Origin: Sinomonas atrocyanea
GTDB lineage: Bacteria; Actinomycetota; Actinomycetes; Actinomycetales; Micrococcaceae
DNA: 64,000 nt
Assembly: GCF_030811715.1 (NCBI RefSeq)
Contig: NZ_JAUSRH010000011.1
Coordinates: 1-64,000 of the forward strand
Direction of reading: 5' to 3'
Shown: positions 24,531-27,598 of the stretch, piece by piece
Layout: every line of letters begins with the position of its first letter
Position numbering within the stretch: position 1 is the stretch's first letter
The notes under the pieces: model-generated
What the model was told of the DNA's origin: nothing
The model's input: only the letters and a program-made list of their open reading frames with translations
Database searches by the model: none
Made by a program: the position numbers and the translations under genes

Positions 24531-26188
<1,658 letters not shown>

Positions 26189-26201
26189 CCCCTCGCAGGA
26201 A

Positions 26202-26247
26202 GCCGCCCGCACGCACCGGATCCTGTCCAGCATGCGGGCGGCCTTTT
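26202..26247 (+). terminator. gdhA terminator
   Basis: GCCGCCCGCA (26202-26211) pairs perfectly with TGCGGGCGGC (26233-26242), followed by CTTTT. The T-run overlaps the -35 box of the next promoter. Confidence 0.85.
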
Positions 26248-26274
26248 GCGCTCCGGACGGACGGGCGATACCGT
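26246..26274 (+). promoter_or_regulatory. Promoter of the DAHP synthase leader
   Basis: TTGCGC (26246-26251), a 17-base spacer and TACCGT (26269-26274). The transcript would start about 26281, next to the leader peptide ATG at 26282, so the leader itself would be leaderless. Confidence 0.6.
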
Positions 26275-26281
26275 GGGCCGC

Positions 26282-26335
26282 ATGTTCAAGCGTTGGTATG
26301 CGTATTTTGCGTTGGCTCTGGAGGGCCAGGCGTAG
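26282..26335 (+). CDS. Aromatic leader peptide of the DAHP synthase gene
   Basis: A 17-codon open frame reading MFKRWYAYFALALEGQA then TAG. Five of its first nine residues are aromatic (F2, W5, Y6, Y8, F9), covering all three end products of the shikimate pathway. It sits between a promoter and a set of alternative RNA stems, 117 bases before the DAHP synthase start. This is the classic layout of a ribosome-stalling attenuation leader. No Shine-Dalgarno is needed if the transcript starts at the ATG. Aromatic leaders before shikimate or trp genes are known in bacteria; whether this exact one has been described I cannot say. Confidence 0.75.
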   Translation: MFKRWYAYFALALEGQA

Positions 26336-26406
26336 AGTTTCGCGTACCGACTTCCAGAGCCAACAGGGCAGGGACCTCACGGTCCTTGCCCTTTGCCATA
26401 CCAACG
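26291..26406 (+). promoter_or_regulatory. Attenuator-like RNA folds before DAHP synthase
   Basis: Three pairings are visible. The Arg-Trp-Tyr codons CGTTGGTATG (26291-26300) pair perfectly with CATACCAACG (26397-26406). 26311-26324 pairs with 26351-26364 (14 bp, one wobble). GGGCAGGGACC (26366-26376) pairs with GGTCCTTGCCC (26381-26391), with one wobble and a TTT after it, as a terminator-like hairpin. GGCTCTGGA recurs at 26410-26418 and could compete for 26353-26361. Ribosomes on the Trp/Tyr codons would break the first stem. The exact switch is not resolved. Confidence 0.65.
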
Positions 26407-26452
26407 GCAGGCTCTGGACCCCGCGGGGCCTGCAGATGAAGGACAGGACCCC

Positions 26453-27598
<1,146 letters not shown>

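Follow-up and report, generated by a model that had tools for sequence, protein, structure and literature searches.

A widely conserved candidate leader-peptide attenuator before the DAHP synthase gene aroF of Sinomonas atrocyanea

We analysed a 64,000-nucleotide stretch of the Sinomonas atrocyanea genome (the window; contig NZ_JAUSRH010000011.1, positions 1 to 64,000), in which the gene for 3-deoxy-7-phosphoheptulonate (DAHP) synthase is preceded by a short open reading frame. DAHP synthase opens the synthesis of the aromatic amino acids and catalyses the committed step of the shikimate pathway. The locus comprises:

24848-26188: glutamate dehydrogenase, the gene 5′ of the leader promoter
26246-26274, + strand: promoter-like sequence, -35 TTGCGC (26246-26251), 17-nt spacer, -10 TACCGT (26269-26274)
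26282-26335, + strand: leader ORF of 17 codons, MFKRWYAYFALALEGQA-stop, conserved 5′ of DAHP synthase
26453-27598, + strand: type I DAHP synthase, aroF (NCBIfam TIGR00034 aroFGH, E 7.4e-139, above cut-off)

The ATG of the DAHP synthase gene lies at 26453, with 117 nt of structured RNA between the leader ORF and aroF. The single PF00793 match in the genome is the enzyme of the window, which makes it the sole type I enzyme; a class II DAHP synthase (PF01474) is present in one copy elsewhere in the same genome, and a rough look found no aromatic leader at that gene. On visual inspection, glutamate dehydrogenase is followed by an inverted repeat of high GC content with a T run (26202-26251), which reaches the -35 box of the leader promoter; it is absent from the list of the consensus scan. 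The glutamate dehydrogenase terminator and the aroF leader promoter seem to share bases.

The sequence-only reading had described the 17-codon ORF as an aromatic leader peptide, as MFKRWYAYFALALEGQA carries F, W, Y, Y and F among its first nine residues, and comparison across genera bears this out. The leader could be aligned before DAHP synthase in Arthrobacter, Pseudarthrobacter, Sinomonas, Microbacterium, Brachybacterium and an Avipropionibacterium MAG, and a related leader, e.g. YWRFIEAPGGA, was found in mycobacteria, Dietzia and a Nocardiopsis MAG, while at L024, L025 and other DAHP synthase relatives no such leader was seen. A degenerate RWYAYF pattern, which would miss variants such as L014, gave 111 matches in 295 family genomes: 109 of them are one exact 18-mer, and the remaining two (L135 and L143) are without a start codon. 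Among 64 family genomes searched for both, the leader pattern was present in 24 of 24 with PF00793 and in none of 40 without. In a second family each of the 30 DAHP synthase loci viewed (of 49 matches) has a short aromatic ORF 3′ of a TANNNT box, a count made without a shuffled control. Conservation of the short frame and the stems in relatives had been proposed as a check; it was carried out and did not speak against the proposal. From these comparisons we conclude that the candidate leader-peptide attenuator before aroF is genuine and widely conserved.

For further comparison 113 loci were reduced to 101 distinct leader-to-start sequences and these to 34 representatives (<86% identity); L135 and L143 were excluded, ten start codons were placed by hand and for two the second candidate was used; in L140 and L141, segment 6 and the tail were likewise assigned manually. 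A good promoter had been claimed in front of the leader. TTGCGC and TACCGT at a 17-nt spacing are indeed present, although the consensus scan listed no promoter within 25900-26900. A TANNNT box lies 6-8 nt 5′ of the leader start in 100 of the 101 distinct leaders, against 4.2% in shuffled upstream sequences, and 90 of these 100 have TTG at 16-19 nt spacing. In the window the leader ATG follows 7 nt beyond the box, and an SD-like 4-mer 5′ of the leader start occurs in merely 5 of the 101 leaders; the leader mRNA is therefore probably leaderless, with a transcription start deduced from the promoter. What we find is a short ORF near this presumed start and rich in end-product codons, as in leader-peptide attenuators.

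The RNA up to the aroF start contains the following pairing elements:

26292-26302, + strand: segment 1 (Trp-Tyr codons), 11 bp with segment 1′
26311-26324, + strand: segment 2, 14-bp stem with segment 3
26341-26351, + strand: segment 1′, partner of segment 1
26351-26364, + strand: segment 3, pairs with segment 2 or, through 26353-26361, with segment 6
26365-26392, + strand: hairpin 4, 12 bp, GC-rich, a constant element with a weak U tract
26394-26409, + strand: hairpin 5 (26394-26397:26406-26409), part of the 3:6 three-way junction
26410-26418 in 3:6 (GGCTCTGGA), 26406-26416 in 6:7 (helix 26407-26416:26424-26433), + strand: segment 6
26424-26434, + strand: segment 7, pairs with segment 6 (Shine-Dalgarno free) or, through 26425-26432, with segment 8 (Shine-Dalgarno hidden)
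26444-26452, + strand: segment 8, CAGGACCCC, abuts the aroF start and overlaps the Shine-Dalgarno region 26439-26448

These elements can be linked into a chain in which each helix excludes its neighbour, 1:1′ / 2:3 / 3:6 / 6:7 / 7:8, and the last helix covers the aroF Shine-Dalgarno (SD) sequence. By their coordinates 2:3 shares bases with 3:6, 3:6 with 6:7 and 6:7 with 7:8, and 1:1′ crosses 2:3 with no connecting loop. For the entire leader the minimum free energy structure corresponds to the OFF fold and is composed of 1:1′, 3:6, hairpins 4 and 5 and 7:8; segment 8 is paired with segment 7 in this structure as well as in the duplex prediction. In the window 7:8 consists of GGGGCCUG and CAGGACCCC, and by eye we found GGUGCC:GGCACC in mycobacteria and CGGUCC:GGACCG in L193. 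Helix 1:1′ reached or exceeded the top 5% of shuffles for 31 of the 34 representatives, the exceptions being L017, L021 and L110. The 14-bp stem 26311-26324:26351-26364, noticed before, is present and conserved across genera. The perfect 10-bp helix proposed between the Trp-Tyr codons and a 3′ segment (26291-26300:26397-26406) exists in the window, and it does form in the predicted fold of the window RNA cut at 26410 or 26435, but as a conserved working helix it is not supported. Only the window exceeds 7 bp among the 34 representatives (mean longest match 5.38, compared to 5.30 in shuffles), and we rejected this helix as private to the strain.

In partner-swap tests with all 34 representatives the native combination was best for 2:3, 3:6, 6:7 and 7:8 (0 of 2000 permutations each), and native pairing exceeded its own swapped mean in 29, 28, 24 and 25 of the 34, respectively. 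The controls 6:8 (1186 of 2000) and 3:8 (1900 of 2000) were null; a third control, 2:7, was also below the swapped combinations, more weakly (11 of 2000). Alignment A1 holds 25 of the 34 representatives; the nine omitted from it for long inserts or poor alignment of segments 6-8 (L120, L136, L137, L138, L140, L142, L167, L168 and L171) are included in the partner-swap tests. Pair counts were set against shuffles and slid controls. For 3:6 together with hairpins 4 and 5, 95.5% of cells were paired and 10 of 25 pairs had changed on both sides (0 of 500 shuffles), namely 2 of 9 in 3:6, 6 of 12 in hairpin 4 and 2 of 4 in hairpin 5 (99.0% of cells paired); further pair types were not significant in this set (93 of 500). 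Helix 6:7 was paired in 93.1% of cells with both-side changes in 4 of 7 pairs (7 of 500). Helix 2:3 was paired in 96.4% of cells in alignment A2 with a covariation score reached by 0 of 500 shuffles, while both-side changes were seen in just 2 of 14 pairs, a number reached by 81 of 500 shuffles. The both-side-change evidence is thus thin for single helices, and in 3:6 with hairpins 4 and 5 it comes mostly from hairpin 4; relatedness among the sequences inflates all of these pairing tests. Single loci point both ways: L022 carries the same change in segments 2, 3 and 6 at once, as 2:3 and 3:6 require, and L021 is a counter-example, with a changed segment 2 that segment 3 does not match.

Helix 7:8 was also tested across several families. 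From the 55 loci L172-L226 we took 38, to which 10 mycobacterial loci were added; L190 and L199 were lost for want of an anchor, and the 46 kept and the 34 representatives gave 80 sequences, reduced to 54. The starts of L202 and L206 were set by hand, and L203 and L207 have a poor SD at the chosen start. Native pairing beat swapped pairing (0 of 5000) but exceeded its own swapped mean in just 36 of the 54 sequences, and a control with reversed segment 8 came close (242 of 5000); because the segment boundaries were fixed, the strongest duplex in several rows, including the window, differs from the named 7:8. Taken as sequence evidence, comparison brings out the leader, its codon register and rare codons (see below) and the covariation of 2:3, 3:6, 6:7 and 7:8. 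Exclusive helices that overlap the codons and are kept by compensatory change are found here, as in attenuators, and a conserved 7:8 that covers the SD competes with 6:7, as in translational attenuators. Of the attenuator proposed by the sequence-only reading, the attenuation-like alternative helices stand, whereas the covarying architecture indicates SD sequestration and not a transcription terminator.

In order to describe the codon register we used 154 distinct leaders in which GGCTC, the core of stem 2, is preceded by three or more aromatic codons and which have a TANNNT box and a complementary segment; the following tallies are conditional on this filter. An aromatic codon lies exactly 17 nt 5′ of GGCTC in 150 of the 154 leaders and Phe 8 nt 5′ of it in 148, all in one frame. 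At 20, 14 and 11 nt W, Y and F replace one another within a constant register. Codon choice is just as uniform: the 154 leaders use TAT 247 times and TAC three times, and TTT 150 times and TTC 11 times. In the DAHP synthase fragments of the 101 loci 2 of 160 Phe codons are TTT and 1 of 189 Tyr codons is TAT, and in six ORFs of the window (TTT 1 of 54, TAT 3 of 47) both codons are likewise very rare. What is kept is thus codon and position, with the peptide sequence free, and this is what codon-dependent stalling needs. An arrest of the ribosome by the peptide itself, or binding of a ligand by the nascent peptide, instead of codon-dependent stalling, appears very improbable to us. Such a mechanism would fit the similar C-termini of the leaders (LALEGP, APGGA), but these are alike because stem 2 encodes them (GGCTCYGG). 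In addition, a natural 1-nt insertion in L086 turns the C-terminus into SLCSGGARV with the RNA elements retained, and the exchange of W, Y and F within a fixed register argues in the same direction. The Phe codon of the window (TTT, 26306-26308), 8 nt before stem 2, is near-invariant in relatives, yet a stall there should repress.

We regard as reasonably probable that the element is a ribosome-mediated attenuator with translational output, induced mainly by shortage of Trp or Tyr. Transcription would begin at or adjoining the leader ATG and a ribosome would load immediately. With ample charged tRNA the ribosome would traverse the leader and depart, and 1:1′ would keep segment 2 blocked; as the RNA folds behind the polymerase, the 3:6 three-way junction with hairpins 4 and 5 would then form, leaving segment 7 free to hide the aroF SD in 7:8 (OFF). 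When Trp-tRNA or Tyr-tRNA is scarce, the ribosome would halt at the first aromatic codons, masking segment 1 and exposing segment 2, so that 2:3 could form, segment 6 would be released into 6:7, and segment 8 with the SD would be open (ON). The state with 2:3 and 6:7 is assigned to ON because 7:8 covers the SD, and judged by the sequence comparison the output lies most probably there. Simultaneous sensing of all three aromatic amino acids, as had been suggested, is doubtful in view of the space that a ribosome occupies: halted at Trp or the first Tyr it would leave stem 2 accessible, but halted at Phe, 8 nt 5′ of the stem 2 core, it would mask this stem, which makes Phe a doubtful inducer. The model predicts that Trp and Tyr are sensed and that Phe does not induce.

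We then masked an E. coli-sized ribosome on the RNA of 33 of the 34 representatives (L140 omitted). For RNA ending before the SD, a Trp or first-Tyr stall led to 2:3 and 6:7 and a Phe stall to 3:6, and 6:7 was higher with a Trp stall than with a ribosome at the stop codon in 26 of 33. The values without a ribosome and with one at the stop codon were 0.90 and 0.69 for 2:3, 1.01 and 1.10 for 6:7 and 0.17 and 0.08 for 3:6, respectively. Simple masking did not reproduce the OFF state, as the replete cases likewise favour 2:3 and 6:7. For the complete leader at equilibrium the SD was on average unpaired to 0.406 with a Trp stall, 0.404 with a ribosome at the stop and 0.395 without a ribosome, so that the starved state was no more exposed, and in the window it was unpaired to 0.52 in all six ribosome cases. 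Equilibrium folding does not separate ON from OFF, which speaks against the model; the switch must then depend on folding order, or the output is a different one.

A different output is part of classical transcription attenuation, in which hairpin 4 (or 6:7) would act as an intrinsic or Rho-assisted terminator and pairing near the SD would be secondary; we consider this rather unlikely. Among the long helices hairpin 4 is the most completely paired (99.2% of cells), U-rich sequence follows it in L278, L028, L040, L037 and L274, and transcription attenuation is reported for aroR-aroF of Corynebacterium glutamicum (PMC11802643/PMC4046766). The 12-bp GC-rich hairpin at 26365-26392, previously called terminator-like, is present, but in the window no terminator was listed at hairpin 4, 6:7 or 7:8. 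The only terminator-like site found by the consensus scan in 25900-26900 is at 26279-26302, inside the leader ORF. Behind the hairpin we counted 3-4 T in 8 nt in 32 of the 34 representatives, a count in which the 8-mer of the window was misplaced (read directly, it has 3 T) and others may be too. Moreover, 2:3, 3:6 and 6:7 overlap no part of hairpin 4, so that this pairing does not switch it, and such a mechanism would offer no explanation for the covariation of 7:8 at the SD. L274, L040 and L037 retain the leader and 2:3 as well as hairpin 4, with U-rich tails, and segments 6, 7 and 8 were not seen in them, which suggests a transcriptional output there. Untranslated mRNA is known to couple to Rho termination. 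Both levels might act jointly, SD occlusion halting translation and Rho or a hairpin then ending transcription; this established coupling and the conservation of both hairpin 4 and 7:8 would agree with such a scheme, which we nevertheless hold to be improbable.

For the translational reading that we prefer, the nearest precedent by our comparison is aroR-aroF of C. glutamicum, which is prior art for an aromatic leader before a DAHP synthase gene. Neshat et al. reportedly described this attenuator in 2014. According to PMC11802643 and PMC4046766, an aromatic leader peptide precedes the DAHP synthase gene and acts through ribosome stalling; control is transcriptional, and limitation of Phe induces while limitation of Tyr does not. 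Compared by these descriptions, the aromatic leader before DAHP synthase is common to both systems, whereas the C. glutamicum system is transcriptional and Phe-induced and our reading for Sinomonas is an output at the SD induced by Trp and Tyr. The locus L274 (MRMWRFYFSKAPEAETS) has Phe-Tyr-Phe at 14, 11 and 8 nt and shares the leader, the stem 2 register and hairpin 4 with the Sinomonas element.

Attenuators of the trpL/pheL type consist of a short leader with end-product codons, a protector helix and mutually exclusive helices, all of which are shared by the Sinomonas element. In contrast to that type, a regulated intrinsic terminator with a U tract was not found in the window, the chain comprises five helices up to the SD and the leader is probably leaderless. 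In translational attenuators of the ermC type a stalled ribosome frees a sequestered SD and the signal is an antibiotic. Freeing of the SD through stalling is also what we propose for Sinomonas, but here the signal would be amino acid shortage and the chain of alternatives is longer. In the LEU element before actinobacterial leuA (Seliverstov et al. 2005, PMC1262725), pairing of the leader peptide region likewise extends as far as the SD of the biosynthetic gene. In that element it is the Leu codons that pair with the SD, and a pseudoknot is present, whereas in Sinomonas a relay of helices joins codons and SD. The survey states that conserved RNA structures were not observed upstream of phenylalanine and tyrosine operons in actinobacteria.

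In its widest form our reading is a relay common in actinobacteria, for which we see even chances: a leaderless peptide read in register would drive five exclusive helices, so that access to the aroF SD would depend on where a ribosome stands 150 nt further 5′, and the register would pick the inducing amino acid. As a rule suggested by the sequences, codons 14-20 nt before stem 2 would be inducing and those at 8-11 nt would not. To our knowledge, a leader-peptide attenuator with five alternative helices would be a long one of its kind, and we found no description of an actinobacterial RNA relay before DAHP synthase in the open-access literature, a search in which most subscription journals lie outside. 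If true, a relay ending at the SD would be a translational route, compared to the transcriptional control described for C. glutamicum. Induction by Phe in C. glutamicum would fit the register if Phe-Tyr-Phe stood at 14-11-8 there as in L274; with this proviso the relay would explain why Phe limitation induces and Tyr limitation does not.

No match over the gathering score of Rfam was obtained in the window or in 10 relatives (top match below threshold: BjrC80, 18.7 bits compared to 80). The element is thus a conserved leader without an Rfam match, and its codon register predicts the sensed amino acid, which makes the proposal directly testable. We built an RNA model (R1) from 25 sequences of Micrococcaceae, Microbacterium, Brachybacterium and one Avipropionibacterium MAG, with no Mycobacterium or Dietzia among them. 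It found nine full-length leaders in Mycolicibacterium, Mycobacterium and Dietzia (E 1e-4 to 0.018) and failed to pick up five mycobacterial loci whose leader is similar (L028, L030, L031, L033 and L035); it also gave reverse-strand matches on hairpin 4 and two matches at chance level. An extended model (R2) was run on whole genomes with protein information unused. Of 55 listed loci, many of which belong to lineages used to build R2, 53 precede DAHP synthase: 52 with DAHP synthase motifs and one in front of a DAHP synthase-chorismate mutase fusion. The other two (L219 and L220) are tRNA genes with a hairpin behind. R2 matched in 47 of 297 genomes in the order, 29 of 296 in the class and 19 of 121 in another family; in that family PF00793 was present in 49 of 61, so that R2 is narrower than the leader.

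Further leaders were observed at the edges of this set. In L217 (about 1425-2551) a DAHP synthase-chorismate mutase fusion is preceded by the aromatic leader LQAYFAFTQ and an R2-like element. A further type of leader, QRxYFWF or SATYFWF followed by PAxGGS/P, precedes DAHP synthase in L280, L282, L286, L287, L289 and L291-L296; the downstream arrangement looks different in L280, L282 and L294, the three of these loci that were read. Aromatic short ORFs were also seen before distant DAHP synthases in L037 and L040 (Actinobacteria and Rubrobacter MAGs) and in L055 and L062 (Polyangiaceae and Sorangium MAGs). In this group the ORFs include SFYERFYY and RRFFWFGYWR, and hairpins with U-rich tails follow, as in classical transcription attenuators.
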